From Marchantia polymorpha subsp. ruderalis (lineage: Eukaryota; Streptophyta; Marchantiopsida; Marchantiales; Marchantiaceae), in the NCBI GenBank assembly GCA_037833965.1, contig AP031354.1, forward strand, positions 32,032,001 to 32,096,000: 64,000 nt of DNA. The letters run 5' to 3'. A program made the translations under genes and the position numbers. Positions 1 to 59,838 of the stretch are shown piece after piece. The notes beneath the pieces are model-generated. The model ran no database searches. It had not been told where the DNA came from and saw only the letters and a list, made by a program, of their open reading frames with translations. Position 1 is the stretch's first letter. Every line of letters starts with the position of its first letter.

Positions 1-201
1 TGTTACGCTGCACTGTGCGACCTCCGAGTGCGCTCCGAGTGGACACTTGCAGTATTTCTGGGAGTGACAGTCGCCTGAGAATTCAAACTCCTCAATAGTC
101 TGTTAAAACGTGACACTTTGTACCCTGTGTGTTCCTCTGTCCCTGTGGGTTCGACCTTTCTACCACTATATTGCAGTTTTAGCCTTTAGTGGGTTATTAC
201 A
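1..201 (+). mobile_element. 3' end of an LTR (truncated by window start)
   Basis: This segment is about 90% identical to the last 200 bp of the solo LTR at 8500-11177. Both share the 'tatttctgggagtgac' stretch and the terminal 'gggttattaca'. The LTR therefore ends at base 201 in the canonical CA. The next five bases (ctacc) would be the TSD, but the left partner lies outside the window. No coding content. Confidence 0.85.
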
Positions 202-1540: not shown

Positions 1541-2139
1541 CATGGTAACCTCGACTCCTGTCGTAGCCTTGTACAACTCAGAGAATCCGAGGGTCATTGA
1601 GATAAGATTAGATGGTGTAGATGAAATCCAGATGAATTCTCAGCTTGACGATCCAAGATGGATAGTAAAATAATGCGTTATGACAAAAAAGTAAAAAAAA
1701 TATGATAGTAAAAGAAGAATTATTTTGTTTGATGCGAAGGGTGCTTTGGATACTTCTTTGGTTTTACGAAAGAAGGGCACGTAGACTCTCAAATGGCTCT
1801 TCCGCAAACGCCGGGTGATACAGCCGGAAATAGATTGTATATTTCCGATCACAAAGACTATAATCTCTCCATTAAAAATCCACCGCGTTTTATAAATTAT
1901 AATAAATGAAAAATCACTACTAAAATTATTTCTTAGTAGTGACACTCCATGGGGTTTTTATTATATACCTATCTTCTATTACTAAGTTGTGCTTTTGTAT
2001 AGTAATATTTCATGAAATAATTGAATTACTACATATGAGTTGTAAAGTCACCTTACAAGGAGTTGCCTTCCATGTTCTTTACATGTACACTTCCTAAAGC
2101 CTGTGTTAATTATTGGAACTTTTGTTTACCGCGGCTTGC
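1541..2139. other. spacer, no gene seen
   Basis: Mixed-composition sequence between the mitochondrial-type insertion and the copia remnant. A minus-strand 101-codon frame (1640-1945) is open but has no recognisable motif. The segment could be more mitochondrial intergenic DNA. Confidence 0.4.
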
Positions 2140-3238
2140 GTACAATGCTTTAAAAAAATACTTTTACACTCCACAACAAAGTGTTGTTTATGAAAAATTC
2201 AACCAAACAATATTGAAAAAGATGTGTAGTATGCCAAGACACTCTAATTTATCATATGAAATTTGTGTTGAAGCTATCAATATCAAAGTGTATTTCTTTT
2301 TCATTCTGGCGCAATCAGTTCTTTGACAATTTTTAAACATCTTTTGAATTGAATCACATACAAATGATTGATGATAGTCATTTCAGAAATTTTGCTTCTA
2401 CGGCTTATACTCTTAAATCTAAAGAAATAATTTCAAGTTGGATCTTTCATCAAAAAATATTGTTATCCTAATATGCTGGTGATGTGAAGTGTTGAAGAAT
2501 ATGAGATACAACAACATGTACTATTGTTGTCAATAAGGATGTTTTTCATTATTAGACTTGTTGCAGTGTTGAGATTAACTTTCCATTTAAGTATGTAGTT
2601 GAAGTGAATATTGATCATAATGGATTTAGTGATGTGATAAAAAAAAATCTTGGTACAAAAAAATGAAACAAATTTTTAAAGAACAAAGTATTGTTGAATA
2701 GATTAAACTAATAACATTAAACGATAGAAATTTATCAGATATATATAAAAGAGTATCATCAATTAAGATCAATAAAGTTCATACACGTTATAGTAATAGA
2801 TCAATACAAGTTCATATCCGTAATTTTTCAAGATCACAAAATTGAAATTAAGTATATTGATGACATTGCATTGATCTTTGAATAAAATTGACCTTCTTTC
2901 ATGAAAAAGCTTGTGTCTATGTTTATAAATTTGAGTAAAATGATGTAAGGGAGTGTGAGATCCAATTGATGATTATTAAGAAGATGTGGATAGTATTAAA
3001 GATTTCAAAAAATCAATCTTTGATTGATAGAAATTGAGTGTATAAACTAAAAACAAATATAGCACATCACCAAAGAATGAATTTCAAAGTAAAATTGATG
3101 GCAAGATGTTTCACACAAGAGAAAGATGAAAACTACAACAAAGTTTTTCCACTTGTAAAATATGTTGAAATTTTACTACAATGTATTTTTGATACACTTT
3201 TTTATTTGCTTATAAATATATAAGATCTGTAGTTGTTT
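2140..3238 (+). pseudogene. Ty1/copia pol remnant: integrase C-part to RT N-part
   Basis: Broken frames follow copia pol in the right order. At about 2165 there is YTPQQSVVYEKFNQ, matching the end of the integrase core with its catalytic Glu. Then comes SNLSYEICVEAIN, matching the usual LSYEFWAEA block. Near 2403 there is TAYTLKSKEI, and near 2480 a block resembling the region before RT (YAGDVK, VVNKDVF). At 3038-3223 there is the RT N-terminal block (VYKLK...KVKLMARCFTQEKDENYNKVF). Many stops and frameshifts make it non-functional. The RT active site is missing here but appears at 7856, beyond the unit at 3453-6948. I infer the copia copy was split by later insertions. Confidence 0.75.
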
Positions 3239-3447
3239 GAACACATTGGTTATAGATGAATCTAATAAATAAACCATGTTTCAATTTGCTATGATTTACT
3301 TAGTTAATTTTTACTAGAAACATTCATCTAGTTTGTACTTGACAGAATAATTAGAATGTATGAATGAACATTAGTATCATTTTTCATTCATTTTAGACTC
3401 AAATGAGGAAAAATTTTGACTACTTGTTTTTTTTTTTAATAAAATTG

Positions 3448-3452
3448 ACTAA
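3448..3452 (+). repeat. target-site duplication ACTAA (left)
   Basis: ACTAA stands directly before the TGTGGTGCC start of the 3453-6948 unit and recurs at 6949-6953 directly after its TTACA end. This fixes both element borders. Confidence 0.85.
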
Positions 3453-3859
3453 TGTGGTGCCTAGTTTTTTGTTTTTCTTCAAAAATCAACAAAAACTTAA
3501 ACATATTTGTGTAGAATGTAGACATATAAGTTAGAAGTGATAGAAGTAGAAGACTTATAGGAGATTTAGTTAGAATTTGCTCTCGGCCGAAGATCTTTGG
3601 ATCTTCAGACCTTCGGTGCAGTCTTTCAGGAGGATGCAATAGCTAGATCTTCGGCGAAGACCCAAACACCAATTTGAAATTCGCATGGATTGAACAATGT
3701 TCACACGTGCCAAGGATACTAATGCGTGCGCGTGGAAAGAATGCTTAGGCATCGAAGGTAAAAGTAGCAAGAGGAGCATTCGTGCCGACATTGCAATTCT
3801 TAGCGAGCACGAACGAAATAGGGGTAGAGCAAAATTGATCGACATTGTTAGCAGCGAAG

Positions 3860-6422
3860 ATGCATATCGCAGACATGGCACCACTGAAGACGACCAAGGT
3901 GCGGAAATTGGTCCCATTGAAGGTGCCCTACGAAGAGTTGCGGCCTTATAGGCGGGAGCTCAGCGAATTGCACCTCAATTTCCCTCTTGTGGAATTGGAA
4001 CTACATATTAGCAAGTATTTGTAAGTAGATTGTGGACAACAATATGAACGATGGTGAGGACCTCTGAGGCAATCCGATGTTGTGGACAATTGAGCATTGG
4101 ACGCGCGTGATGGGGCTGTGTGCAAGCAATGATGGAGATCTTATGTTTGAAAAGGATAGTGTGAAGATAACTCGCGCGGAAGAATTCACCTTTGGTCCAC
4201 TTTTCAAGAATGGAAGATCAGGGACGAATGGATAGAAGAGCACTGACTATAAGTATCCGCAAAGGCGAGCGATTGCGTTGGGCATTATGCATATCTTGCG
4301 ACTGCATTGAACGACTCATGTCACGGCTTGGAATATCGGGTTCTTTGAGCGGATTATGAAAGAAAATTGGGTACATTGGGCGAGTATCTTTTACGATCTA
4401 GTCTGGATTAATGCGAGCGCCCAATGGGAAGGATCATTGGGGAATCACTTGACTCCTTTTATCGTGAACTTCTACCAAGGAATGGAATTTCTCACGAAGG
4501 AGGAAGAAAAGCGATTTCCGAAGGAACTGAAAGTGCTAGCAGTCGAATCCAGTGAAGGGATTGAGGAAGAAGATAACAGTCGACCTAAGATACCACCTCA
4601 GACGACAACGCGCGAACCTGTGTAGGTGGATGTTCTGCCAACGCGAGAGAGATCAGAACGTTGATTGAGGAAGATACAGAAGGTAGTGACTGATTACGAA
4701 GAGGACTTGGAAACGGATAGTAGGAGTTTGGAAGTCAAGAACTTGAGCTAGGCTGAAGAAGAAGGCGAGTCGAGGGTTAGTGGTGACAAAATCTTCATAA
4801 CGTAGTGTGGAGAAAACAGTTGTGGCAACTAACGCGACAACCAAAGATACTACTGGCGAGCCGATACAGCAAGTGTTGGAAGGGGAACCTTCGGCGGTAT
4901 CAATTGAAGTTCCAACTAATGTAGCAGTGGAATCTTCGGAGGAGAGAAAAGAGATAGCTAGTCTAAGTTTTCTGTCTTCGGAGCAGACGCGGTCTGTTGG
5001 GAGTGAAGACATACCTCAGCCCAAGTCCAACGAAGAATTAGTGCAGGAGCTCACGTTGAGTGAAGCAATTTTGAATCAGATTGTCGCAGAGGTTAGTGGG
5101 ACGGTAGGAGACACCACAGAGATTTAAGAGCCGCCACCTTCTGAAGAGTAAGTGAGATCGGAATTCGCGACGAAGACTTCGGAGGAAGGGCCGAAGGTGT
5201 TAGAGATTACATTTCCTAACTTCTTGCAGGATAGCGTAGTACCTTTACTAAAGTACCTAGACACGAAGAGGAAAAAGTATATCGTGAGAAAAGAGCTAGA
5301 ATTTTATGTTGAGCTGATCAAGAATATGACGAAGCTCAAGAGAGTGGTAGCAATGAAGAGGGAGTGGGATTGGCGAAGGAGCGAGCTGCAAGCTTGATTG
5401 CGGAGTGCGCAGCGGTGAAGGCGACATTGCAGAAACGAGAAAATCAACTTCGGATGAAGGAGATGGAGTGCGAAGTGCTGCAATTAAACTTAGCAAAGAA
5501 GATTGATCGTTGTGCAGAGTTAGAACAAACCTGCATCAGTCTTTGTACCACTAATGAGAATGCACAGAAGGTGACGGTGGATTTGTGCGGGAGACTAGAG
5601 AAGTCCAAGGAAGCATACAAGGCGGCAGTGCAACGGGCGGAAAGATTGATTACCACTGCAAGATAACGAGAGCGGATGCATGCCGACGAGTTAGCTAAGG
5701 CATAAGAACGAAGGGCCGAAGAAGCATAGATCATCGAAGATCTTCAAGGGAAGATTGCAGAAGCGAAGACGGTAGAAGAAGAACTTTGCAGTAAGATTGC
5801 GGAGCTTGTGAGTGAGCGTGACAAGGAGTTCAAATGCGCGGAGGAGCTTACAGCAAGTCTGGCGGAAGAATTCTGGAAGCACGAGGGAGAATTGACTGTT
5901 TGGGCCAAGAAATTGGCAGATTGCGAATCGGCCAGATCTCCGGAGGTCGAATGTAGATTAATGGTCGGGTCCGAATGGCGACAGTTACAAGAGCAGTTGG
6001 GGAAGGCTGCCATGAGATTGGAAGAATTGCAGCGGAGAATTGAGAAGGCAGAGGCAGCATACCGTCACTTGCGGGATGAGACGACCGATGAGATGAGATT
6101 GCGAGTTGAGAAGTGTTTGCGGGGATTCACATTGTGGGAATTGCAATCAATTAAGTGGTTGAAGCTAGATTCACTAGAGCGACGGTTAGTGAGTGCAAAG
6201 ATCAGCGGATCCGCAGGACACAAGCAGTTAGTAGAGTTAGTTAATTCTTTCTCTTCAAGATTAGAAGAGGCACAAGAGAACATAGAGATAGAAATTCTAA
6301 ACGTTTTGCGTAGGTTAGGAGCAGACGTAAGCTTAGACGACGCTGTAACTGCTACGTCGGATGGCACCGCACCTGAGAGTAGTTCACCTCGGGTGGTTGA
6401 GATTCCTAGGCCATCATTGTGA
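3860..6422 (+). pseudogene. coiled-coil protein of the LTR-type unit (decayed)
   Basis: I do not recognise the family. The reading begins near the ATG at 3860 (PLKTTKVRKLVPLKV...). It passes a Trp/Tyr-rich domain around 4275-4625 (NWVHWASIFYDLVW, NHLTPFIVNFYQGMEFL) and an acidic Ser/Glu-rich linker (4626-5150). From 5364 to 6422 it runs as a long heptad-rich coiled coil rich in Glu, Lys, Leu and Ala. The last 353 codons share one frame with only three stops (TAA 5664, TAA 5703, TAG 5727), followed by 204 open codons. Upstream there are frame changes and stops (for example TGA near 4307, TAA 5125). The C-terminal part (LVNSFSSRLEEAQENIEIE) recurs in copies 2 and 3, so it was a real protein. 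The stop TGA at 6420 overlaps AATAAA. A structural or gag-like role is only a guess. Confidence 0.65.
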
Positions 6423-6454
6423 ATAAAGATGCCCAAGGCTCTTTCCTTGGGGGC
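6422..6454 (+). promoter_or_regulatory. AATAAA signal overlapping stop codon, plus hairpin
   Basis: TTGTGAATAAA is conserved at the end of the coiled-coil frame in all three copies (6418, 15835, 51520). TGA is the stop, and AATAAA begins on its last base. Here GCCCAAGG (6431-6438) can pair with CCTTGGG...C (6445-6454), followed by TTTT. It reads like a built-in polyadenylation signal. The hairpin is weaker in the other copies. Confidence 0.5.
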
Positions 6455-6948
6455 TTTTCTATTGATTGGCTTGTCTTGACTGTGAATCTGTATCTACTGT
6501 GTGTTGGTGTGTGATCTTGCCATTGATCACAATGCGCTCATGTTTGTCAAAGCTACCGCATCAAGAGTTGTGAGTGTCCAGCTTGAATGTTCCGAGTAGC
6601 ATGGGGTTCTTTGGGATTTAAGCAAATTCGGATATGGGTATTCGGATCAATAAGTCGGATGTATGCAATTCTAGGAAGTTTTCCCCCTGAAATCTAAGTG
6701 TAGGGTCGCAGGCGATTCCCACATGTGTTGATTGGACAAGTTTCAGGTTGTGAGGGTGATCATACTCTACTCTTCAGATCTTTGGCCGTAATTGAGCAGT
6801 GTCTTCTCGGATTGACATTGGCCTAAGAAGTAAAAATCATCAATAAAATGTTAACATGTGACAAATCGTGACTTTTGATGTTGTTTCTGTCCTCGTGGGA
6901 TCGAATCTGTACCATTATGCTCCATTTTGATATTTATTTGTCATTACA

Positions 6949-6953
6949 ACTAA
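6949..6953 (+). repeat. target-site duplication ACTAA (right)
   Basis: Exact match to 3448-3452, directly after the TTACA end of the unit. Confidence 0.85.
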
Positions 6954-8499: not shown

Positions 8500-8716
8500 T
8501 GTGGTAACCCATTTTTTGTTTTTCGTCGGAATTAAAACATTTTTGAATGGTAAGTACCGCGGTAGCAGATGTAAATAGTAATCGGTACGCAAAAACAGAG
8601 TAAACAGAGGATCAAGTGCAGTCAAGGGGTTTTGGGCTTAGGCCACAGTCTGACGCTTGGGACACAACTGGCGGTTCATGCTGTAAGACCAGTTTTGAGC
8701 ACCTTCGGCGGTAGAT

Positions 8717-9598
8717 CACTCATAACTTTCTCAATTCGTAACGCCTTGAGTTACTTAGGGTCTTGTTAGAAAGAACTTGACGCGTTGGTTCTAACGAGCC
8801 CACAAACATGTGAAATGGATGAGAGGTCACTGAGTTATGAGTGTCAGAAGTTACTAATATAGGGGCCTTCAGTGGTAGAGCTACTTTGGCGGTACGCCTT
8901 CGGCGGAATAGTGAATCCCTCATAACTTTTTCAATTCATAACGATTTGACTTGCGTAGGGTCTTGTTGGAAAGAGCTCAACGCGCTGGTTCTAACAAGCA
9001 CAAGAACTTGTGAAACGGATGAGAGCTCACTGAGTTATAAGTGTCGGGAGTTACTGATATGGGGGACTTCGGCGGTAGAGCGACAGCGGCGGTACGCCTT
9101 CAGCGGAAGAGTGCCTTCGGCGGAATAGTGAATCCCTCATAACTTTCTCAATTCATAGTGAATCCCTCATAACTTTCTCAATTCATAACGCCTTGACTTA
9201 ATTAGGGTCTCATTGGAAAGACCTCGACACGCTTGTTCTAACGAGCCTAATAACTCTTGGAACAGATAAGAGATCAATGAGTTATGAGTGTTCGGAAGTT
9301 ACTGATAGGGAGCGACTTCGGGTCAACGGACTTCGGGTCAAGCGCCTTCGGGTCAACGGACTTCGGCGACGGACGTCTTCGGGGATACGCCTTCCGTGAC
9401 GGACGCCTTCGGGGATACGTCTTCGGCGATGTGGGAGAGTGTCTTCGGCGGAAGACTGGATTCCTCATAACGTTTTCAATTTGTAATGCCTTGACTTGGT
9501 TAGGGTCTCGTTGAAAAGAGCTCAACACGCTCGTTCTAACGAGCCCAAGAAGTCTTGGAACGGATAAGAGATCACTGATTTATGAGTTTCGAAAGTGA
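8717..9598 (+). repeat. four structured LTR modules (8717, 8917, 9136, 9461)
   Basis: Each unit begins CCTCATAACTTTCTCAATT and runs through 'agggtct-gttggaaagagct'. It then passes the palindromic GCTCGTTCTAACGAGC and ends CACTGAGTTATGAGTGTC. The outer CTCATAAC...GTTATGAG ends are inverted repeats, so a module can fold as one nested hairpin. The third unit carries a duplicated start at 9136-9190. The same module, reversed, sits in the LTRs at 55.4-59.8 kb, and single copies lie at 14279 and 50505. Confidence 0.8.
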
Positions 9599-9710
9599 AT
9601 AATATGGAGTGCCTTCGGCGGAAGAGTTCCTTCGGTGCAAGGGCCTTCGGGGCAAGGGCCTTGGGCGGTAGACGCCTTGGGCGGTACGCCTTCGGCGCCA
9701 CGTGGCAAAA
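9300..9710 (+). repeat. CTTCGG-rich minisatellite within the LTR
   Basis: There are many close CTTCGG or CCTTCGG words, as in the runs 'acttcgggtcaacgg' and 'cgccttcggggatacg'. They cluster at 9310-9440 and 9608-9700, on either side of the fourth module. In RNA each C(UUCG)G can form a very stable tetraloop. The in-frame reading (FGSTDFG repeats) looks protein-like only because of the repeat. Confidence 0.6.
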
Positions 9711-10180
9711 GATTTCCGATGGCAGAAATTGGCGGGATTATGTTAAGTGTGGGAAGGAGAACAGCGGGGCGTAAAGTCGCACGTGAGAAGCATGCCGTTA
9801 TCCATAATCTCGGGAACGGCATTCAAGCGGCCTGTGGGTCCCCCGTACCTCGGATTTTGGAGAAGGAATTTCGGCTAGGGTTCAGAGATCTTGCGGGGCC
9901 CATATCTTTGCAATGGACAGTCGGATGGACCTGAAATTTGGTGGGGCCGTTGGTCTAAGCCCGCCACGCATGCCTGGAACTTTTCAGCCGCAGATCTTGG
10001 ATCAAAAGCTGTTAATGACGCTGGCGGCTCTGTATAGTAGGCTTAGGATTCAGCTTAAGGGTTAGGGTTAGATTTAGGTTGTAAGTTAGAGGGGAAGGCA
10101 GCCTCCGACTCCTAAGGTGTAGGGTATGTTGCGGCTCGCACCATAGCAGGTAGAGTAGTGTTAGTTAGGATCTCAGAGGG

Positions 10181-10187
10181 TATAAAG
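10181..10187 (+). promoter_or_regulatory. TATA box of the solo LTR
   Basis: TATAAAG stands after the module-rich U3-like part and before the conserved 'ctctgcgtgtttgtg' and GAAGATACCGCAT boxes. This is the expected place for the LTR promoter. A start site about 30 bp downstream (near 10212) is inferred. Confidence 0.5.
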
Positions 10188-10349
10188 TAGTTCAAGGCGT
10201 CTTGCCTTGGGATTCTTCCAGTTTCGGAAGTGCAGATCAGGAACTCATTTTCTCTGCGTGTTTGTGTCCTTAGTTCTGTGACCGCGCAAGAGGAGCTACA
10301 ACTTGACGAAGATACCGCATTTTGTAGCTGAAGGCCTTCGGCCGAATGT

Positions 10350-10484
10350 TCAGAGCTAGTGTACTGGTTAGATACTTGAGCAGTTTGGATCTACACCTGC
10401 GGGTGATTGTTGAATGCTCAGAGCTAGTAACTGGTTAAATACTTGAGTAGTTCGTCCTTACACCTTCGGGTGATTGTTCCTGTT
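10350..10484 (+). repeat. ~70-bp tandem duplication in the LTR
   Basis: The stretch 'gaatgttcagagctagt...gggtgattgtt' is followed directly by a second version, 'gaatgctcagagctagt...gggtgattgtt'. The two copies differ by scattered substitutions. Confidence 0.6.
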
Positions 10485-11177
10485 TGTACTCCTTCGGATG
10501 TTTCCCCTAAATGCCAAAGTGAAGTTTTGATTATTTCGAGTAAGCCTTGGTTGTAAATTCAGATTACGCTGTAGAAGGCGCCCTCAGGGCAAACCTCTGC
10601 AGTATTTCTGGGAATGACTAGTGCATGAGAATTCAAACTCGTCAATAGACTGTTATGGTGTGCCACTGGATCTTTTCTCATTTGAGTTTCTCATGTCGGA
10701 TCTGTATTCTCTGCGCGTTTTGTGAGTTGAGTGTGTTGTTCACCGCGTGTGAGTGACTTCAGTTTGACGAAGATACCGCATCCGAAGTAGGAAGTCGAAC
10801 CCGGGTGCCGTGCGCCAGCAGAAACTAGTGAAAGGGTTGTAAAGGCCGGAGTTGGGAGTCACTACCTGCAGATTTGCTGAATGTACTTGTGAGAGACTTT
10901 CCCCCTGAAATCTTAAGTAGAAGTCCTAACCGACCTCTGAGTTGTGTTTCTATAGTTTCAGGTGTGTGTTGAGTGAACTACGCTGCACTGTGCGTCCTCC
11001 GAGTGACCTCCGAGTTGAGCACTTGCAGTATTTCTGGGAGTGACAGTCGCCTGAGAATTCAAACTCTTCAATAGTCTGTTAAACGTGACACTTTGTACTC
11101 TGTGTGTTGCCTCTGTCCTTGTGGGTTTGACCTTTTTGCTGCTATACTGCAGTTTTAGCCTTTGGTGGGTTATTACA

Positions 11178-14058: not shown

Positions 14059-14278
14059 AATACTGTGATAACGCAGTTTTTAATTTTTTTTGAGCAGTTG
14101 AAGTTTGCAGAGTAGAGGAATAGAAATTTACACTTTTAGAATAAAGATAATTAGAAGTGCAATTAAATAAAGGATTCTGTAGTAAATTCATGTTAGATAC
14201 ACTTTTGTTGGAGTTAGTGTTTTTACTTGCAGTCAATAAAGTTAAAATGAGATGAGTTATGATTAGATAGAGTAAATA

Positions 14279-14405
14279 CCTCATAAATTTTTCAATTAGT
14301 GGCGACTTGACTTAGGAAGGATAGAGCTTGACATGCTTGTTCTAACGAGTCCAAGAACTTCTAAAACAGATAAGGGCTCACCGAGTTTTGAGTGTTGGAA
14401 GTGGT
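14279..14405 (+). repeat. single structured LTR module
   Basis: A diverged copy of the module in the solo LTR. It reads from 'cctcataaatttttcaatt', through 'gcttgttctaacgagtcc', to 'caccgagttttgagtgtt'. Confidence 0.7.
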
Positions 14406-14409
14406 TGGT

Positions 14410-15839
14410 ATGAATAGGAGAAAACGAAGAAGGAAGTTTAGCCTTCACACCTTCAAAGAAGGACCTTCGGCCTTCGGACTTCGGACTTTGGCTTTGAAGA
14501 AGAAAAGCCTTCGGCGTTCGGAGTGGCGATCTTTGGACGTGTCCATGGATGGTCCGTCGGAGGAAGGAGAAGAACAAGAGGATGAGACCGAAACAAAGAG
14601 TCGGATCAATGTCTTCGGCCTTCGGAGCAACCATCAGCAAATTCAGCCAAAGATCTTCAGCCTACGGATAAGTAAACTTTGAATGTGCATGTAGTGTTGG
14701 AAGAGCCGGTGATGGAGCAAAAAACTTCTGAACTGAGTGGTAGCAGAAGTGAAGAAGACTGTCGCGGAGCAACAGACAATGCCTTTATGTCAGGTGTCTT
14801 TGGGTACAGTCGATTTTGATTGCGGCGAAGGGCCTTCGGCTGAAGAACCAAAGACTGCAGAGCTTAGTGAAGCTGATGTTTGGAGTGATAGGATAGTTTC
14901 CTTTGTCAGGTATTTAGATGAAAAGATGGCAAAGTACTCGGTGCCAGCGTCTGGAGAACTATCTTATGTAGAGTTAGTGTGCTGAAAGACTAAGGCAAAG
15001 ATGACAGCAACTACTGAGCTAACTAAACAAGTTGCAAGCTTGACTTTTGAGTGCATGAACGTGACGGCTACCTTCCAGGAGCGGAAAGAGCAACTTCGGG
15101 TGAAGGAGTTGGAGTATTCAGAACTTTGACGGAAGCTAGAGGCTGAGTAGAACCTTTGTACGTAAAAGGAGTTAGAGTGCAAGGAAGTTCGAGTTCACAT
15201 CAACAACTTGAAACTTCAAAACAAATTGGAATTGTCTCGGAAGGGATTTGAGAGAATTCAAGCGCACGGAGGAGCTGACGGCAATTTTGGCGGCAAGGAA
15301 TCAATCTCATGCTGCCGAATTAGCTCGTAGGGCGAAAGAATTGGCTGATTGCGAAGCTGTCCAAACTTTAGAGTTAGAGCGTGGAAAGAAATTGGATGCG
15401 GATTGCAGCAGATTGCAATCTCACCTGTCGGCAGTTGGTCGTGGCTCGAACAAAATTGGTGGAAACTGAGGCGATTGTCCAACAGCTGGAACAGTAGACG
15501 GATGCAACATTGCATGCAAGGGTAGAGCGATGTCTTCGCGGTTATGTGGAATGGGAGATCCACACCATAAAGTGGATGAAATTGGATTTGCTTCAGCGTT
15601 GATTGAAAGCATAAAAAGCCAGCGGAGCCGCAGGACATCGGTAGTTAGGTAGAATGGTCAATTCTTTCATTTCTGGTTTAAAAGAAATGAAGTAGAATCT
15701 AGAGTTAGAGCTTTCAGCAATTTTGAATATGATAGGAGTAGACAGGAGTTCTACGGGTGTGGCAAGTGCCGCATCTGCAAAAGTCGCATCTAATGAGGGC
15801 TCGCAGCTAGCGGTTGATGCCTCCAGATGTTCGTTGTGA
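14410..15839 (+). pseudogene. coiled-coil protein of the LTR-type unit (decayed, copy 2)
   Basis: Homologous to 3860-6422. The N-terminal part (14410-14682) differs and is rich in CTTCGG-derived Phe-Gly codons. The middle (14737-14985) is acidic (CGEGPSAEEPK, SEADVW). From about 15000 the coiled coil is recognisable, with stops TGA 15127, TAG 15148 and TAA 15163 in one frame. A readable stretch at about 15300-15400 (AELARRAKELADCEAVQTLELE) parallels the WAKKLADCE stretch of copy 1. The end (VNSFISGLKEMK..LELELSAIL) matches copies 1 and 3. It stops at TGA 15837-15839, overlapping AATAAA. Clearly dead, but shared structure shows the protein belongs to the element. Confidence 0.6.
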
Positions 15840-16063
15840 ATAAAGAGATCCAAGTCTCTGCCTTTGGGAGTCTTTTCCATGAATCAATTTCTAGTCTTGA
15901 GTTTGCATTCCTCCGCGCGTTTGTGAGTTGTGCGTTTTGTCATCGTGCGCGAGATGCTTCGGTTTGTCAAAGATACCGCATTTGAAGTAGAGATTTCAAT
16001 TTGAATGTTATGAGTGCTGTATAGTGTAGCTCAGGATTTAAGCAAATCTACACATTGGAAGCT

Positions 16064-16102
16064 CGGTGCAGCCGACACTCAGTCGGCTGCACCGACTGAG
16101 TG
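16064..16102 (+). repeat. two overlapping, mutually exclusive hairpins
   Basis: CGGTGCAGCCGAC (16064-16076) pairs perfectly with GTCGGCTGCACCG (16082-16094). CACTCAGTCGG (16076-16086) pairs perfectly with CCGACTGAGTG (16092-16102). Both use the centre, so only one can form at a time. Copy 3 has only the unduplicated 'ggtgcagccgactgg' here. Confidence 0.7.
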
Positions 16103-16392
16103 TGTAATCTTGGGAAGTTTTTCCCCTAAATATCAATTGGAAAGTCGCTTGCAGTTTCTATGGGAATCTATTGGATGAATTTCAGGATTTGAGTGTGATT
16201 TCACCCTGCATTGTGTCGCCTTCCGCCTTACCAAATGCAGATGCTTCTAGGAGTGACATGTTCCTGAGAAGTAAACTCTTCAATATAATGTTAATTCGTG
16301 ATGGTTGTTAAATATTTAGTGTTGTTTCTGTCCTCATGGGATCGGATCTTTATCATCTATGCTTCATTTTGATAATTATCTACCTTATCACA

Positions 16393-24008: not shown

Positions 24009-24320
24009 GTCGACGATTATTCCCTCGATCCAGTCGCGATGTACTTGTTTGAGACTCGGGCCCCTGCGGCAGTAGCGTTCGAGGGCCATCGGGACCTCAC
24101 CCATGAATTTGACCCGCCGGCGGAGAACCCCGTTCCTCATTCTCACCTGACTGATACACTTTCTCGTGCTTTGCGAAAATTTTGATGACCACCACCGACC
24201 GCATCGCGAACTTTCAAACTCGTGGACTCCGGTCATCGAGACGTCGGTTCGGTTTCTCGACACGGCGAGCACCAGCGATTGGAACCACCGTTATGGAATC
24301 GCGCCCACGTTGACTACACG

Positions 24321-25012
24321 CAGTTTCCAATTAAAGACAGCTCCTCCTCCTCAGAAGAAAGCTTCCTAAGAGAAAAGAAAGCTTCGAGTTTCTTAGACTT
24401 GAAGCTCTGTACAAGATTGGAACTGTCACGATCAGCAGTAGATCCAAGCCGACTACAGGCTGTTTCCAATTAAAGACTGCTCCTCCTCCTGAGAAGAAAG
24501 CTTCGTAAAAAAAGAAGAAAGCTTCGTAATTCTTAGACTTTAAGCTCTGTACAAGATTGGAACTGTCATGATCAGCGGTAGATCCAAGCTGACTACAGGC
24601 AGTTTCCAATTAAAGACTGCTCCTCTTTCTGAGAAGAAAGCTTCGTAAAAAGAAAAGAAAGCTTCGTAATTCTTAGAGTTTAAGCTCTGTACAAGATTGG
24701 AACTGTCATGATCAGCGGTAGATCCAAGCTGACTACAGGCAGTTTCCAATTAAAGACTGCTCCTCTTTCTGAGAAGAAAGCTTCGTAAAAAGAAAAGAAA
24801 GCTTCGTAATTCTTAGAGTTTAAGCTCTGTACAAGATTGGAACTGTCATGATCAGCGGTAGATCCAAGCTGACTACAGGCAGTTTCCAATTAAAGACTGC
24901 TCCTCTTTCTGAGAAGAAAGCTTCGTAAAATGAAAAGAAAGCTTCGTAATTCTTAGACTTTAAGCTCTGTACAAGATTGGAACTGTCATGATCAGCGGTA
25001 GATCCAAGCTGA
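24321..25012 (+). repeat. tandem array, five copies of a 140-bp unit
   Basis: Units start at 24321, 24460, 24600, 24740 and 24880 with 'cagtttccaattaaagac'. Each runs through two 'gaaagcttcg' words, 'ctgtacaagattggaac' and 'atcagcggtagatccaag'. The middle copies are almost identical and the first two are diverged. Because 140 is not a multiple of 3, the minus-strand frames in it are repeat artefacts. Confidence 0.9.
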
Positions 25013-28000
25013 CGGGAGCGCGAACTTACCGACTGTGAGAGTCCACCATAGTCCGATCCCAGAATCTCTCTCAATTCAAACTCTGAATGATAACAGAAAT
25101 CTCTACGATCAGCATCGAGGGTTCCAATGTATGAAGATTCTTGTGATCTTTTGTCAAGGCCACAACGTTCATGTCTGATTGTCTCAGCTGGTCGGGCTTA
25201 TAAAAGAGAGATTGCGAATGCTGTACAACTAGACCTTGAAGAATAACTAGTCCAGATCGGATTGTAAATGGGGGCACCGCGTAGAGAAATGTCAATGGGA
25301 AATTTGCAAATCACCACAATGATGGCGACATTAGTGTCAGACGGGGATGCAGATCAAAATTTTCGGTCCATTGCAGTTGACAGCCCAATCTTCTTCGGCG
25401 AGGATACTGGAGAGGCTAGATAATATTCCGTGGCCCAAGCGATAAATATCAGATCGTTCGTGATGTGTTAAGTCAAGTATGATACGATTTCTTGCTTCCA
25501 AGTGACATTTTGGGATGACGTTGGGCCGACTTGAGCCTAGCGATCCAACAGTCCGCGAATAAAATCATGACTGTAGTGGACACGTGAAGTGAAAAAAGTC
25601 AGGGGAACATTTTTGAGTGAGAGCAGATGGACTCTTGAGAAAAGACAAGACAAAGTAGATAGGTGTGCATTATTCAATGACTCATGATGGTCAAATTCGA
25701 GAATGTGAGTTGTTTTGCTACGATTAGATAAGAAAGTTTCGAGCAGCCGAGAACATTGTCAGACACGAGAGCAAAAATATTCTGTCAGGGTTTTCTTCTA
25801 GAATACAGCAAATTCTCATCCAGAAGTATTAGCTCTTGTGAAACCCAGTTTCAAAGACAAGCTAGCCTACCCCAAGACTTTCTTTTAAGCATCGGGATAT
25901 CACGAGTGTTAAGAATATATATATTTAAAAGAGAGAAGAGACCAAGTGGATAACAAAAAATATCTGAGAAGACCCCATCAAGACCTACAAGGATGAACCC
26001 AGAGAGACCATGGGCTAGGCCCAAATAATGTAGTGATGGCTCGTGGGCCCTGCTTGGGGGATGTTTTTTCTAGTAGGCCTGTCTATCTTGAATCAAATGT
26101 TCTTGGTTTTTGAAGTACTTGCTCCATGTGCACGGACAGTGTGCAAAATTGTGAGTGTGTCAAGTGTTTGATCTTCGTGACTAAGCTCATTTGTTCAAGT
26201 TAAGCATGACACGTCTAAACTTGATTTCTTTGGAACCCGATTCACAGGTGCTGGTTTGAACACCATTTAGACCTTCTTCGTTCTAACAAGAATATTACCA
26301 AAAAAATATATTTTAACACTCAACTTATGTGATTCTCGCTAGGTAGATGCTAATTCAGTAACAAAGCACTTCTAAAAAAGACTTAGTTCGATATCATTCG
26401 AGGTTTTACTCGAAAGCTATATTAATTTCTTCCACATACACTACAGGGTTGACTTTACCGATATCTCTTATGTTATAGAGCTTATTAGGTTCATCTCGTG
26501 AGTCTGAATCAAATTTGATTCTGGTCAATTCTATAACGCTCGTAATAAATTGAAATGGTATCTATCTATTACCATATGCACCTAATATATAAGACTTCAA
26601 GGTCTAAAACCCTCGTTTGATACTTCTACTGCTGGCATGTACTATGCCTAGGTAGTTGACTACAAAAACTCCATGCATTGTCTACATCTACATATCACAT
26701 CTAACTAGTTGACTAAATGGAAAACAAAAAATACCTTTCAGTTCACTGCTAGCCAACGCTCCCAACTTGGATTCTCCATGAACCTGTTGATCATACTCAA
26801 TACACATGAGATGTAGAACAGAGTACTCACAATGTACATACGACCCCATATAGACCTTTTGAGAGTCACTTTGCTATTGTATACCTTCAACTTTTATGAG
26901 ATTGGACAAATCTTATGTACAGTTGGAAATATACATATTGCAGGCACATCAAATATCACAATAATGGATTTTCATTCAACATATATTACTTGAAACATTT
27001 ACTTCCTGCATCTAAGATTAAATATTATTTGTGCGTATAATGAGTCATCATTATTTTTCTTTTGACTTAAAAATCATAAGAAGATCAAATGATTTTGCAT
27101 ATCAATCGCATCAAGGAAATGTTAACAAGACATATGTAAGATTGTAGTGTAAGAATAATAAATCAATATATTGATCTCCACTCCCGTTTGAAGCATTTTC
27201 ATACAATAATCAAGTAGGAATATGTAGTAATACCTATGTTCGGAAAGTTTTATGATGAAAAATTATGTAGATGATTATATGATAAGGATTGATGACTTAA
27301 AACCAAAAGGATAGAGTTTAAAGCTTGACAGAGTTGTAGAAAGACAAAATTTGAAGCAGCATCATGTGTTTCTTTGTTAGAATTATGAAGAATGACATTC
27401 ACCTCCTCATATAGTAGCGTAACATATTTTTTCTAAATCGCAATCAAGTTTCCAGATAAAGTATGTTTTATTGTATAAATTTCTACCCTCTTTGTCAACA
27501 CAAGCTAATCTCAACATCAAAATCTATAACCATTAAGTACGAATATAAATATTAGTGATAATTTTGACAAACATGCTTGGTCAACACATGTATAGTACGT
27601 TGATATCATGCGATATGGGTATAAGACAAAAAGAAATGTATTTCCTTACAAATTTCTTTATTTTTCAGTAAAATAAATAAATAATAATCTACATTGGAAA
27701 TTTTATGTGTGTGATTTATCTTAATTTTTTCACAACATAGAATAGTAGAATCAATTTATTTAAGAGATAGTAATCACCTCCTAAAGCATACATTATGACG
27801 TTCATTAATAAAATATCATTCATAGAGTTTTGATTTTTTTCCCAACGTCATACGAATCCTTGACAGCGGTATAAATAAAAGTGTGCCTTGTAGAGTACCA
27901 TAACAGGTGCCATGTAACGTACCATTATATGACACACGTGAACTCTACCTAGTGTCGCTTTTCGTCATCATGACATTAGGGAGTATTAGTCATGTGGATA

Positions 28001-50130: not shown

Positions 50131-50504
50131 TTGAAGAAACCTAGCTCAAGTAAAATGACTTAGAAAGAAGTCAAGAATAAAACATACAAGATCAATCTAG
50201 AAATTGCTACATTGATATGTATGATATCCAAGCTTGCATTAGCCATTCAAGATTTGGACGAGAAGAGTATAACTGTGGTAACGTAGTTTTTCATTTTTAT
50301 TTAAAAGATGAAGTTTGAGGAGTAGATGAATATGAATCTATACTTTTAAAATAATAATAATTAGAAGTAGATGAAATAGTGGATTCTGTAGTACATGACA
50401 AGTTAGGAATAGTTGGTACCCATGTTAGATATTAATCAGTTGGAGTTAGTGTTTTACTTGCAATCAATAAAGTTAAATTAGATGGGTTTAATCTGATAGA
50501 GTAA

Positions 50505-50632
50505 ATAATTTTTCAATAAGTGGCGACTTGACTTAGAAAGTATTCTCGGCATGGTCATTCTAACAAGCCCAATAACTCTTAAAACGGATGAGAAATCATC
50601 GAGTTATGAGTGTTGGAAGTGATTGGTATGGA
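50505..50632 (+). repeat. single structured LTR module
   Basis: A diverged module: 'tttttcaataagtggcgacttgact', then 'tcattctaacaagccc' and 'catcgagttatgagtgtt'. It lies at the same place within the unit as in copy 2. Confidence 0.65.
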
Positions 50633-50639
50633 TAGGAAG

Positions 50640-51525
50640 AAGGCAAAGAAGTACCTTTGGCCATCAAACTTTGAACTTCAGCGTAGACACCTTCGGCTTT
50701 GAAGAAGAAGGGACTTCAGCCTTCGGCCTTTGAATCAACCAAAAGCGACTTTGGGTGAAGATCTTTGTTTTTTGGATGAACAAACTTTGAACGTGCGCGA
50801 AGGGATTTGGAGGCCTTCGGAGGTTCTTCCTTCGGACGAAGGGACTTTGGGTTGAAGTTTGCATAGTTCTGAAGTCAAAAGAAGAACTTCGGGATGGATT
50901 GGAGGAGTCTTGGGCAGCATTTCAGAGAGAATTCAAGCGCGCCGAGAAGCTGATAGTGCATTCGATAGCACTTGAGGCATTAGTGTTTGCCAAATTAGCT
51001 CGTTGGGCGAAGCAGGTAGCTGATTGCAAAGCTGCCTAAACTTTGAAGTTAGAGCATGGGAAGAAGTTGAACGCAGATTGCAGCAGATTGCAATCTCTAA
51101 TGTTGGCAGTTGAGGAGCAGTTGGTCGCGGTTCAAGCAAAATTGATGGAGACAGATGCGACTATCCAACAACTTGAACAACACACGTATGCTGATTAGCG
51201 CGCAAGGGTAGAACGATGTCTTTGCAGTTATTTGAATTGAGAGATTCTAACTATAAAGTGAACAAAATTAGACTCGTTGGAGCGTCAATTGAAGGAGTTG
51301 GAAGCCAACGGAGTCACAGAACATGGGCAATTAGGTAGAATAGTCAATTCTTTCATTTCCGGTTTAGAGTACACGAAGGAGAATATAGAGTTAGAGCTCA
51401 TAGCAGTTTTGAGTATGATAGAAGTAGGTAGGAGCTCTGTGGGTGTGGCAACTACCGCATTTGCAAAAGTTGCATCTGATGGGGGCTCGCAGCTAGCGGA
51501 TGATTACTCCAGGTGTTCATTGTGA
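50640..51525 (+). pseudogene. coiled-coil protein of the LTR-type unit (most decayed, copy 3)
   Basis: This is the shortest copy. The N-terminal part is CTTCGG/CTTTGG-rich low complexity. The region before the coiled coil is deleted compared with copy 1. From 50930 the frame parallels copy 2 (LARWAKQVADCKAA then stop TAA at 51037, where copy 2 has CAA). The last 82 codons (51277-51525) are open: LKELEANGVTEHGQLGRI, then VNSFISGLEYTKENIELE. It ends in TGA (51523) overlapping AATAAA. Confidence 0.6.
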
Positions 51526-52060
51526 ATAAATAGGCCCAAGGCTCTGCTTTCGAGTAGCTTTTTCATGAGTAAGTTTTTAGTTTTAACTCTGCATTCTTTC
51601 GCACGTTTGTGAGTTGTGCGTTTTGTCAAAATGCACGAGTTGCTTCAATGTGTCGAAGATACCGCATCTAAAGCAAAGAGTCCAATTCGGATGTTCTGAG
51701 TGGTGCATAGTGTAGTTCAAGATTTAAGCAAATCTGTGCATTGGAAGCTCGGTGCAGCCGACTGGACGTATAATCTTGAAAAATTTCCCCCTTTAATATC
51801 AATTGCAGAGTCGCTTGCAAAATTTGTGGGATCTATTGAATAAATTTCAGAATATGGATGTGATTGCACCCTGCATTTGTGTCGTCTTTGGCCTTAGCAA
51901 GTGCATATGCTTCTAGGAGTGACGTATGTTTGAGAAGTAAAACTCTTCAATAGAATGTTAATTCGTGATAGTAATTGAATCTCTAGTGTTGTTTCTGTTC
52001 TCGTGGGATCGCATTTTTAACCTTATGCTTCATTTTGATATTTATTAATTATTAAATTAT

Positions 52061-52080
52061 CATCCGGCGCGAGCCGGATG
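52061..52080 (+). repeat. hairpin at the left border of the GC-rich island
   Basis: CATCCGGC pairs perfectly with GCCGGATG around a 4-nt loop, exactly where the AT-rich LTR end gives way to GC-rich sequence. The following TCTAG resembles the CTRR of Helitron 3' ends, but spacing and the next base do not fit well. Confidence 0.6.
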
Positions 52081-55367: not shown

Positions 55368-56280
55368 TGTGAGCCAAACCTTCCCACCCTTCAGCGTTTG
55401 TAGTCCGGGTGGGGGTTCGAACTCCCATAATCTAACTTCTCTGATTGCAAGCCATGTACTCAAAGTGTATTCGGGACAATGAGATCATAAACACTTGCTC
55501 CTTCACAGACAAATTATCCAGAACTGAAAATAATAACCTTGCTGTCTACTATTTTCGCAAGAGCATCAGACAAGCTCTTTGTTACATAAAGATCTAACCC
55601 AACTCTGGGTGACTTCCTCAATACTACAGCCGCTGTGGGCTTTCCTAGATACCAGTCCCACTCCCAATTCCTACTTAGAGTTCAATGTCGACTTCTCAGC
55701 TCCCACCTTCAGACCCCACCAGATTTCTCTCTCGGATTCAACTCTCACTTTTCAAGTTCAAATTCAGATCCCGACTGTCAGATTTCAGTCTCAGATTTCA
55801 CTTCACTCACATCTCCCACTCTCAGGTCTTCCACTCAGATCTCAGCTCCCACTCACAGATTACACTTCAATCTCAGATCCCACTCTCAGGTCTTCCACTC
55901 TGATCTCAGCTCCCAGGCCGAGCACACCACTTCCGTCTCCACACACGCACACCACCAGCTCTCGCACACTGGTACACTACAAGCTCTCGCACACTAGGCC
56001 GAACACACCACCAGGTCTCAGCTCCCACGCCGAACTCTCCACTTCGAAGTCCAAGGCCGAGACACTCACAGCCCGCCTGCATGCCCCACTCGCAATGATG
56101 GATAGCTGCCTGCTCCCCCTGCGCGACTACACGCCGCCGCCGCCGCCACACCTGTACATTCTACATCCTGACCACCCGATATCCGCCGGAGGGGATCTTC
56201 TTTCGCGCACCGCCGAAGGCATCCACCCGCAGAAGACGCACGACCACACCTTTGCTTATCCATAACAGTCACTCCCGACA

Positions 56281-57090
56281 CCCATAACTCACAGACCCTA
56301 GCTCTGTTTCACAAGTTCGTGGGCTCGTTGGAACAACCAGGTCGAGCTCTTTCCAACGAGACCCTAACTGGGTCAAACCGTTATGAATTGAGAAAGTTAT
56401 GACTGTTTTACCCTTAGCCGAAGGCACACCGCCGAAGGCCTGTTACCTGTTATCGCCGAAGGCGCCGGCACAATGTTTGCCGGTTTGATGTCTTCCGGTT
56501 TGATGTCTTCCGGTTGGATGTTTTTCGGTTGGATGTCTTCCGGTTGGATGTTGTCCTACCCTATCTGCCGCTTTCGACGCTCATAACTCAGTGACGCCTT
56601 ATCCGTTTGAAGAGTTCTTGGTCTCGTTGGAACGAGCGTCGCGAGTTCTTTCCAACGAGACCCTAATCAAGTCAAACCGTTAAAAAATGAAAAAGATATG
56701 CCGAGTTTACTGTTTCGCCGATGGCCCTTGCACGATGTTCACCGGCTCGGAGCTCGCCGACCCCGAGTTCGCCGACCCCGAGTTCGCCGAAGGCCTGCTC
56801 GCAGTTGTCGCGAAGTCGTCCGAAGCCGGAGATGTTCGCAGCCGGAGACCCCCGGTGCCGAAGACGTTCGCAGCCGGAGACGTCCGGAGCCGAAGACGTT
56901 CGCAGCCGGAGACGTTCGCAACCGGACTTGCCTCAACCCTTCCCATCAGTAACTTCCGACACTCACAACTCAGTGATTCCTCATCCGTTTGAAGAGTTCT
57001 TGGTCTCGTTGGAACGAGCGTTGCGAGCTCTTTCCAAGGAGACACTAACTGAGTCAAGGAGTCACACATTGAAAACGTTATGAGGGTTTC
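56281..57090 (-). repeat. three structured LTR modules in LTR A
   Basis: Reverse-strand copies of the solo-LTR module at about 56281-56405, 56575-56700 and 56957-57087. Example landmarks are GGTCTCGTTGGAA...TTCCAACGAGACC (a 13-bp inverted pair) and 'accgttatgaattgagaaag'. Confidence 0.8.
56470..56565 (+). repeat. short-period repeat variable between LTR A and LTR B
   Basis: In A this is a repeat of 'gtttgatgtcttccg' and 'gttggatgtcttccg'. At the same place B (58945-59065) has 'gcgagtgcgccga' and 'gttcgatgtcttccg' units. Confidence 0.7.
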
Positions 57091-57317
57091 ACTGTTTCGC
57101 CGAAGGCCTTTCCCCGAAGGAACTTCACCGAAGGCTCTTCGCCGGAGACCCTGCCCTGAAAGCCCCGTTCCGGACCTTTGCCTACTAGCTATTACACCAA
57201 CTCCTAATCTTACCAAAACTTCCAAAAAACTCCGAGCATAATTTTGCAAGAGCTTAAATCTAAAACTTTAACTCTCACAAGGTTAAAAAGACATGTGAGC
57301 ACAATTTTGTGCTCACA

Positions 57318-57334
57318 CTTCGCTCCCCACTTTT
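57318..57334 (-). promoter_or_regulatory. polypurine-tract-like sequence beside LTR A
   Basis: On the minus strand AAAAGTGGGGAGCGAAG runs directly into TGTGAGCAC of LTR A. This is the expected plus-strand primer site before a 3' LTR. Confidence 0.55.
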
Positions 57335-57371
57335 CAACTTCCTGTGATATATGTACCGACATAAAAAATGG

Positions 57372-57840
57372 CTATATGGGCTTTACGAAACCATACATCT
57401 TTGATTCATCAAGAGCTGACTTTGAAATCTCACCCTTTGTCCGAGCTGTCTCTTCATCTTCGATGACACCCAGGTCTGCCATGCGCTTCATTCGACCTCT
57501 TAGAACGGTTTCTCCAAGATCAAGTTTAGCTTTCCTGCCCGTTGGACTATAGAGATAATCCAGAAATTTCAAGATTACATTCCAAAGATGGATTCCAGTT
57601 GGATTGTTCAATCCAACTGTACTTACCACAGAATACTATCCATTCTTTTGCCTCAGCTTTCAAATCGCTGCAACTGTCATCTGCACTCAAGATCGCCACA
57701 AGATCTTCCATGGCTTCAACTTCGTCAATGTCAATCTCTGACTTCTTCATACCTCGCCGTTGACTGCTCTTTCTGTTTTTGGCATGCTCTCTCTTCATCC
57801 ACTCTTGAATAGAATCTACGAACTGTGCCTTTCTCTTACA
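57372..57840 (-). pseudogene. captured host-gene-like fragment with intron-like join
   Basis: Two exon-like minus-strand blocks. The first, about 57840-57627, is lysine/glutamate-rich (QEWMKREHAKNRKSSQRRG, EAMEDLVAILSADD, AKEWIVFC). The second, about 57562-57372, reads SPTGRKAKLDLGETVLRG, then MKRMADLGVIEDEE and SKMYGFVKPI, and ends in a stop. Between them is a consensus donor GTAAGT (57626-57621) and acceptor-like ...CTATAG. I do not recognise the protein. It resembles neither Gag nor Pol. The simple splice does not keep frame, so an indel or a different acceptor must be assumed. Lying between two LTR copies, it looks like DNA-level capture of a host gene piece. Confidence 0.5.
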
Positions 57841-57845
57841 GGGAT

Positions 57846-59781
57846 TGTGAGCCAAACCTTCCCACCCTTCAGCGTTTGTAGTCCGGGTGGGGGTTCGAAC
57901 TCCCATAATCTAACTTCTCTGATTGCAAGCCATGTACTCAAAGTGTATTCGGGACAATGAGATCATAAACACTTGCTCCTTCACAGACAAATTATCCAGA
58001 ACTGAAAATAATAACCTTGCTGTCTACTATTTTCGCAAGAGCATCAGACAAGCTCTTTGTTACATAAAGATCTAACCCAACTCTGGGTGACTTCCTCAAT
58101 ACTACAGCCGCTGTGGGCTTTCCTAGATACCAGTCCCACTCCCAATTCCTACTCAGAGTTCAATGTCGACTTCTCAGCTCCCACCTTCAGACCCCACCAG
58201 ATTTCTCTCTCGGATTCAACTCTCACTTTTCAAGTTCAAATTCAGATCCCGACTGTCAGATTTCAGTCTCAGATTTCACTTCACTCACATCTCCCACTAT
58301 CAGGTCTTCCACTCAGATCTCAGCTCCCACTCACAGATTACACTTCAATCTCAGATCCCACTCTCAGGTCTTCCACTCTGATCTCAGCTCCCAGGCCGAG
58401 CACACCACTTCCGTCTCCACACACGCACACCACCAGCTCTCGCACACTGGTACACTACAAGCTCTCGCACACTAGGCCGAACACACCACCAGGTCTCAGC
58501 TCCCACGCCGAACTCTCCACTTCGAAGTCCAAGGCCGAGACACTCACAGCCCGCCTGCAAATGCAACACTCGCAATGATGGATAGCTGCCTGCCCCCCCT
58601 GCGCGACTACACGCCGCCGCCGCCGCCACACCTGTACATTCTACATCCTGACCACCCGATATCCGCCGGAGGGGATCTTCTTTCGCGCACCGCCGAAGGC
58701 ATCCACCCGCAGAAGACGCACGACCACACCTTTGCTTATCCATAACAGTCACTCCCGACACCCATAACTCACAGACCCTAGCTCTGTTTCACAAGTTCGT
58801 GGGCTCGTTGGAACGAGCAGGTCGAGCTCTTTCCAACGAGACCCTAACTGAGTCAAACCGTTACGAATTGCGAAAGTTATGCTGGTTTTACCCTTCGCCA
58901 AAGGCACACCGCCGAAGGCATGTTACCTGTTATCGCCGAAGGCGCCGGCACGAAGTTCGCGGACGGCGAGTTCTCCGGCCGCGAGTGCGCCGACTGCAAG
59001 TGTTCCGGCCGCGAGTGCGCCGACCGCGATGTCTTCCAGTTCGATGTCTTCCGGTTCGATGTTGTTCTACCCTATCCGCCGCTTTAGACGCTCATAACTC
59101 AGTGACGCCTTATCCGTTTGAAGAGTTCTTGGTCTCGTTGGAACGAGCGTCGCGAGCTCTTTCCAACAAGACCCTAATCAAATCAAACCGTTAACAAATG
59201 AAAAAGATATGCCGAGTTTACTGTTTCGCCGATGGCCCTTGCACGATGTTCACCGGCTCGGAGTTCGCCGACCCCGAGTTCGCCGAAGGCCTGCTCGCAG
59301 TTGTCGCGAAGTCGTCCGAAGCCGGAGATGTTCGCAGCCGGAGACGTCCGGAGCCGAAGACGTTCGCAGCCGGAGACGTTCGCAGCCGGACTTGCCTCAA
59401 CCCTTCCCATCAGTAACTTCCGACACTCACAACTCAGTGATTCCTCATCCGTTTGAAGAGTTCTTGGTCTCGTTGGAACGAGCGTTGCGAGCTCTTTCCA
59501 AGGAAACACTAACTGAGTCAAGAAGTCACACATTGAAAACGTTATGAGGGTTTCACTGTTTCGTCGAAGGCCTTTCCCTGAAGGAACTTCACCGAAGGCT
59601 CTTCGCCGGAGACCCTGCCCTGAAAGCCCCGTTCCGGAACCTTTGCCTACTAGCTATTACACCAACTCCTAATCTTACAAAACTTCCAGAAAACTCCGAG
59701 CATAATTTTGCAAGAGCTTAAATCTAAAACTTTAACTCTCACAAGGTTAAAAAGACATGTGAGCACAATTTTGTGCTCACA
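57846..59781 (-). mobile_element. Ty3/gypsy LTR, copy B (1936 bp)
   Basis: Same ends as copy A (TGTGAGCC...GCTCACA). The first ~700 bp are almost identical, and the remainder has indels, chiefly in the short-period repeat at 58945-59065. The flanks (gggat and tcatt) are not a TSD. On its right the gypsy pol ends only 57 bp away. Confidence 0.88.
58757..59550 (-). repeat. three structured LTR modules in LTR B
   Basis: Same three modules as in LTR A, at about 58757-58882, 59088-59211 and 59426-59550. Confidence 0.8.
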
Positions 59782-59785
59782 TCAT

Positions 59786-59802: not shown

Positions 59803-59838
59803 AGATTCCAGAATCCTAGCTCTGCAGGCTAGACAGCT

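Follow-up and report, generated by a model that had tools for sequence, protein, structure and literature searches.

A gene under purifying selection inside long terminal repeats of Marchantia polymorpha, probably those of a Ty3/gypsy clade

Long terminal repeats (LTRs) are generally regarded as regulatory sequences. Here, we describe an LTR that holds the relic of a protein gene, in a window (the whole stretch of DNA analysed) of 64,000 nucleotides from Marchantia polymorpha subsp. ruderalis (assembly GCA_037833965.1, contig AP031354.1, positions 32,032,001 to 32,096,000, forward strand). The repeat, termed unit 1, occupies window positions 3453-6948. It starts with TGTGGTGCCTAG and ends with GTCATTACA, its termini are TG...CA, and a 5-bp target-site duplication (TSD), ACTAA, lies on both sides (3448-3452 and 6949-6953); ends and duplication are exact, as described in the original prediction, which had been made from the sequence alone. 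Rather than a stand-alone element, unit 1 is a solo LTR, and the gene in its U3 (unique 3′) region was conserved by purifying selection across LTR subfamilies. The gene begins with an ATG at 3875 (MAPLKTTKVRKLVPLKVPYEELRPYR...) and ends with a TGA at 6420-6422. The reading frame of ~2.5 kb that had been predicted here is real as a gene relic, but in the window copy it is broken by stops and frameshifts.

The assembly searched comprises 241,466,482 bases in 9 contigs (denoted by C and a number; matched loci by L and a number). A genome search with 3453-6948 returned 63 matched stretches from the best 40 of 1285 candidates. L001 is the window copy itself, while L004, L006, L007 and L008 are the same places as L009, L010, L011 and L012. 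Flanks were read in 22 copies, namely the window copy and 21 loci, with L013 and L022 (fragmented) excluded. A perfect 5-bp duplication borders nine of the 22, in L017 and L018 only after the 3′ end is moved by 10 and 4 nt, respectively; six more match at 4 of 5 positions, five have a truncated or trimmed end (L016, L020, L024, L025 and L027), and the duplication is absent from L009 and L010. At L028 (C9:1324000-1333500), a unit-1 LTR is nested in another, whose outer pieces overlap by 5 query bases (1330-1334).

The status of unit 1 as an LTR is revealed by L009 (C1:1337892-1341423, minus strand), where the terminal CA is followed by 17 nt and then by TGGCGCCGTTGCCGGGGA, a primer-binding site (PBS) of putative tRNA-Asp type. 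When TGGCGCCGTTGCCGGGGA was sought with up to 3 mismatches in the loci read and the window, L009 was the sole place found. Beyond the PBS lie broken gag frames (PF03732, 8.3e-06, above the cut-off), two motifs of CCHC form (the CCHC Pfam match falling below the cut-off) and a protease-like frame, which has no Pfam match of its own and is 50% identical to a frame of the sister element L035 that passes PF13650. Two further genome queries were made, with the L009 LTR and with the 2992 bases that follow it. Of the 30 listed gag-side starts (internal base 1-6), at least 14 are preceded, at the appropriate distance, by an LTR or LTR-gene match, known from coordinates alone except in L009. Three of these rest on LTR DNA: L009, a place where LTR and internal matches abut between C4:18610715 and 18610716, and one where they lie 14 bases apart (C5:28803161/28803147), the internal match starting at query base 6. 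Seven are recognized through the protein C-terminus, 538-553 bp away, and four through the N-terminus, 3026-3108 bp away. For the other 16 starts, none was found among the matches listed; one C-terminal match, 831 bp off, was left uncounted.

The other end of such an element is seen immediately to the left of the window, in the young Ty3/gypsy element L035. In this sister element, pol runs protease-reverse transcriptase-RNaseH-integrase and has Ty3 Gag-Pol as its best solved relative. After pol come a polypurine tract (PPT), GAGGAGGGGGGCA, and an LTR that starts with TGTGGTACCCC at L035:4230 and ends at window position 201. This LTR encodes a homologue of the unit-1 protein; compared with L036 (C1:4832800-4836500), a unit-1 relative with a gene that is broken only after 710 open codons, counted from the ATG, the N-domain is 37% and the C-terminal part 29% identical, with common C-terminal stretches such as VIPLLRYLD/VVPLLKYLD. 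Shortly 3′ of the gene stop, L035 has a TATAAAA and a hairpin, and this position of the TATAAAA places the gene in U3. By coordinates only, a same-strand, 99% identical copy of the LTR lies 13.9 kb upstream (C5:32010573-32014368); as this gap exceeds a period of 11.2 kb seen elsewhere in the family, other DNA probably lies between the two. That period emerges from a search with 3772 bases of the L035 LTR, for which 47 matches were listed: the LTR and its 99% copy, four smaller pieces, and 41 half-length matches of 97-100% identity, of which 13 cover approximately bases 2-1916 and 28 approximately bases 1908-3772. The second-half set includes six clusters of 2-3 same-strand copies 11.2-12.3 kb apart (again by coordinates only), spaced as LTR-internal-LTR series would be; together with the high identity, these clusters mark the sister family as young and recently multiplied. 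The LTR at C1:4220170 was considered as the 3′ LTR of the C1:4208736 element and ruled out, as in L038 it sits within what appears to be the gene of another relative.

The original prediction had offered two alternatives: an LTR carrying an accessory protein gene, multiplied by insertion and kept in solo LTRs, or a small non-autonomous element mobilized by a partner. The junctions described above, LTR-PBS-gag in L009 and pol-PPT-gene-bearing 3′ LTR in L035, bear out the former. The latter, taken as a complete unit that has its own gene and in no case serves as an LTR, could draw on the 21 of 22 copies in which PBS and gag do not follow (the sequence common to their flanks consists of scattered or nested repeats) and on the 15 of 22 that have a full or 4-of-5 duplication of their own. 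It is nevertheless exceedingly improbable: unit 1 proves to be the LTR of larger elements, LTR or LTR-gene matches recur upstream of gag-side starts, and the ends of the unit do not form direct repeats, the first 500 bases sharing with the last 600 only short matches at chance level (best E 0.37). A stand-alone element is thus rejected because of L009, L035 and this end-against-end comparison. A Ginger-like DNA transposon, with TGT...ACA ends, was likewise ruled out, since gag follows the LTR in L009.

In the window copy, the gene is split over several frames by stops, and only the last 204 amino acids form an open stretch; against the first 710 codons of L036, it has 13 in-frame stops and three frameshifting indels. 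Elsewhere, stop-free frames of 632 amino acids (C6:22317049) and 727 amino acids (C1:4833280) span the N-domain match. Selection on the gene was estimated from an alignment of 23 LTR copies, from which L016 (2560 bases) was excluded. With the NG86 method, codons with gaps or stops being dropped and related copies counted as separate comparisons, the ratio of non-synonymous to synonymous substitution rates (dN/dS) is 0.201-0.326 for L036 against the 22 others and 0.19-0.28 for L037 against ten of the other copies. The window's subfamily (10 copies, 45 pairs) has a median of 0.29, and the closest pair of near-intact copies gives 0.33, well short of the neutral value that the original prediction had raised for the youngest copies. 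The higher value of 0.51 between the window copy and L002, its closest relative among the matches listed, is expected because neutral decay after insertion adds up. Divergence by codon phase in 21 comparisons is 0.265/0.234/0.456 within the open reading frame (ORF), an excess at third positions, whereas the LTR flanks, used as a control, give 0.308/0.302/0.318 in the first 423 bases and 0.245/0.238/0.237 in the last 500. Constraint differs along the protein: in medians of 20 comparisons, with L028 excluded, the N-domain has the lowest dN/dS (0.11-0.15), against 0.34-0.38 for the linker and 0.17-0.38 for the C-terminal part.

These values bear on the possibility that the LTR acquired a host gene as a passive passenger of no use to the element. 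Plant LTR elements are known to capture genes (PMC7264820), and the unit-1-family copies read are all broken. We nonetheless give capture very little credence, given the purifying selection across subfamilies, the homologous gene in a sister family at only 37% N-domain identity, and the thousands of candidates in protein searches (7832 first-look candidates with the N-domain and 6920 in a second search, the best 150 of each being scored).

Several Trp and Tyr residues are conserved in the N-domain. In the linker, the motif AKRRKVVTDDEED, with the core K[KR][RK]K[VM], is intact in 17 of the 23 copies and has one basic residue changed in four, while the basic core is degraded in the window copy and L024; the motif has the form of a classical nuclear-localization signal. 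The C-terminal 204 amino acids are nearly all helical in a single-sequence model of low confidence (mean predicted local distance difference test, pLDDT, 51.6). The original prediction of a long coiled coil is consistent with this helical C-terminus, but of 30 windows in a heptad-periodicity test only four, including two in the linker, reach p<0.05, making a coiled coil plausible and not proven. No transmembrane segment was found in 710 residues of L036 (max KD19 0.92).

The gene might instead be an additional ORF, env-like or of another kind, that lies between pol and the 3′ LTR as it does in Athila and has no more than an overlap with the LTR. Its strand and its position after pol are indeed those of sense additional ORFs, as far as the available part of PMC7264820 describes them, but the whole ORF lies inside the LTR, PPT and TG precede it in L035, it is present in solo LTRs, and the residues of L036 mentioned above contain no transmembrane segment. 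We judge such an overlap improbable; an origin of the gene through a PPT shift that swallowed an additional ORF is possible.

Several points weigh against the reading favoured below, that of an accessory protein encoded in U3. Among the loci read, no unit-1-family element with both LTRs was found, and L010, besides lacking a TSD, is followed by Ty1/copia-like frames (assigned by eye) instead of PBS and gag, a flank that we tentatively ascribe to a rearrangement. A wholly intact gene was not found among the 23 aligned copies: L036 and L037 are both broken, and the other 21 carry 3-15 stops each. The dN/dS values themselves depend on dropped codons and on comparisons that share ancestry. The L035 gene itself consists of two halves joined out of frame. 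At this join, 9 bases (query 1908-1916) are common to both sets of matches, and L039 has an open, Pro/Ala-rich frame of 141 amino acids upstream of the second half and in frame with the C-terminus; we read the join as a linker deletion or a recombination of two LTR types, and the sister family at large would then have a longer gene. Database searches gave matches below curated cut-offs only in Pfam (U3-gene protein), none in PHROGs for two proteins, and no credible match in PDB for the N-domain, the only part queried there; judged by these searches, the protein belongs to no assigned family, and its proposed function finds no backing in homology. Finally, the AATAAA of unit 1, which stands where the sister LTRs have a TATA box, is ambiguous and could be a poly(A) signal instead.

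Several LTR subfamilies share a conserved hairpin immediately 3′ of the TATA position, at 6430-6454 and homologous sites. By eye, it shows one compensatory pair change (L035) and one mismatch (L014), with no formal count of covariation; it is possibly the 5′ end of R.

Two further units in the window had been described as having matching ends and a homologous C-terminus (table 1). They are related LTRs with homologous C-terminal relics (best tblastn E values of 4e-26 for unit 2 and 2e-22 for unit 3), but at the ends originally assigned neither has a TSD, and tblastn found no N-domain match in either. Across the genome, C1 holds 50 of the best 150 N-domain places and 2.3% of the bases; this excess is suggestive only, because the list stops at the 150 closest places and was obtained with a query from C1. 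C1 is presumably the U sex chromosome, and old LTR copies may pile up on this non-recombining chromosome.

Table 1. Coordinates of unit 1, its parts and related features in the window.
Feature	Position	Strand	Basis
End of 3972-bp 3′ LTR (start L035:4230 = C5:32028230) of young Ty3/gypsy element	1..201	+	Encodes homologous protein
Target-site duplication ACTAA, left	3448..3452	.	Read in sequence
Unit 1, solo LTR TG...CA	3453..6948	+	63 genome matches; relative L009 with PBS and gag after LTR
U3 5′ non-coding part	3453..3874	+	Codon-phase signal absent in relatives
Relic of LTR (U3) gene, ~849 codons, with stops and frameshifts	3875..6422	+	Reading frames, dN/dS, codon-phase divergence
Conserved N-terminal domain (end approximate)	3875..4590	+	dN/dS 0.11-0.15 among relatives
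Degraded nuclear-localization-like motif (AKRRKVVTDDEED in relatives; ends approximate)	4656..4706	+	Copy alignment
C-terminal 204 amino acids, helical; sole long open part of unit 1	5808..6422	+	ORF list, model
AATAAA overlapping stop codon, at TATA-box position of sister LTRs (TATAAAA/TATAAAG)	6422..6427	+	
Conserved hairpin CCCAAGG-CTCTTT-CCTTGGG at predicted start of R	6430..6454	+	
Remainder of R-U5, conserved blocks	6455..6948	+	Codon-phase signal absent in relatives
Target-site duplication ACTAA, right	6949..6953	.	Read in sequence
Unit 2, related LTR, gene relic shortened (begins near residue 400 of L036), no TSD found	14064..16392	+	tblastn
Unit 3, related LTR, C-terminal gene relic only, no TSD	50274..52062	+	tblastn

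The window also contains other elements and repeats. A young Ty3/gypsy element on the minus strand (55368-62790) has a 983-aa open pol frame and two 3′-side LTRs that enclose ~530 bp; its listed relatives are 97-99% identical, many with frames of ~2039 aa, and some stand in series, for example at C8:5921729-5947753 with 8120-bp spacing. As an autonomous partner of unit 1, the gypsy element at 59839-62790 was ruled out: its two LTRs, at 59775-57846 and 57318-55368, come from another family, a young one, and, when compared within the window, share only short repeats with a further solo LTR at 8500-11177 (TGTGGTAACCC...GGGTTATTACA, TSD CTTGT). The latter has ~145-bp repeats in its U3, along with a TATAAAG and a TATA-proximal hairpin like those of the gene-bearing LTRs. 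The ~145-bp repeat (CATAACTTT..CAATTCATAACG..TTGACT..GGGTCT..GTTGGAAAGAGCTCG...) occurs inside LTRs of several families, the young gypsy element included, at 8700-9690, 14280-14410, 50490-50630 (these last two partly by eye), 56250-57150 and 58740-59610. A tandem repeat of 140 bp in five to six copies lies at 24228-25067.

Taken together, these LTRs probably belong to Ty3/gypsy elements of one clade, with a nuclear accessory protein encoded in U3, in a position like that of retroviral sag and nef. Given the TATA position, the gene would come last among the cistrons of an RNA that starts in the 5′ LTR, carried in its 3′ U3; alternatively, a short RNA might arise from a promoter between the LTR start and the ATG (~420 bp). 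The gene lies inside the LTR, so each end of the element receives it on reverse transcription and LTR-LTR recombination leaves it in solo LTRs. The product would enter the nucleus by means of the basic linker motif and self-associate through its helical C-terminus, with the N-terminal domain acting on the element's own DNA or RNA; the most likely effect would be higher transcription or less silencing of the family's LTRs. An element of the same anatomy could, however, use the protein as a cofactor, either structural or for nuclear import, of its particle or its pre-integration complex. The basic motif and helical region fit such a role equally, and pre-integration complexes need nuclear entry, according to the accessible part of PMC7264820. 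Nothing bears directly against it, but the site in U3 near the promoter position and the conserved hairpin weakly suggest regulation. A cofactor is a possibility, though not a likely one, and for a nuclear self-associating protein we modestly favour LTR regulation over a role in nuclear entry. A more specific version, which we put forward tentatively and consider unlikely, is that the U3 protein trans-activates or de-silences its family at the LTR, perhaps via the hairpin, in a Tat/TAR-like or Tas-like manner; solo LTRs would then form a dispersed multigene family that supplies the protein in trans or, once decayed, competes.

If the assignment of the gene to a nuclear accessory protein of this clade is true, the U3 strategy of complex retroviruses exists in Ty3/gypsy elements too, and a large unassigned protein family is added to the genome of Marchantia, a model plant. 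Solo LTRs would be gene copies and not mere scars, and it could be tested directly whether plant retroelements make activators or anti-silencers of their own.

In the open-access literature, we found no description of plant LTRs that hold a conserved protein gene, a weak absence as most subscription papers lay outside the search; the accessible parts of PMC3485330, PMC11963269, PMC9985172 and PMC5408684 describe none. Among known plant systems, the additional ORFs (env-like in Athila and Bagy2; gene23 of Grande and those of RIRE2 and Retand, which are antisense) likewise provide an extra conserved protein, and that of Grande gene23 is nuclear. They differ in lying between pol and the 3′ LTR, some of them antisense, as the available part of PMC7264820 describes, whereas the Marchantia gene is inside the LTR, in sense orientation and free of transmembrane segments in the part examined. 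Rice Retrosat2, RIRE3 and RIRE8 resemble it in having LTRs of ~3 kb or more and an extra ORF; their ORF0 is upstream of the gag-pol ORF and, in the part of PMC3485330 at hand, is not placed in the LTR. Cassandra terminal-repeat retrotransposons in miniature (TRIMs) have a gene-like feature in the LTR, but it is a 5S rRNA-related sequence and no protein gene (PMC10853983, accessible part). A close likeness is to sag of mouse mammary tumour virus (MMTV) and lentiviral nef, which lie in retroviral LTRs, in the last-cistron position (PMC2664473, accessible part): here too, a sense-strand gene occupies the 5′ part of the LTR and is present at both ends of the element. The Marchantia gene differs from both in belonging to another host kingdom and retroelement family, with no protein similarity known, and in its length of ~850 codons and its presence across several LTR subfamilies.

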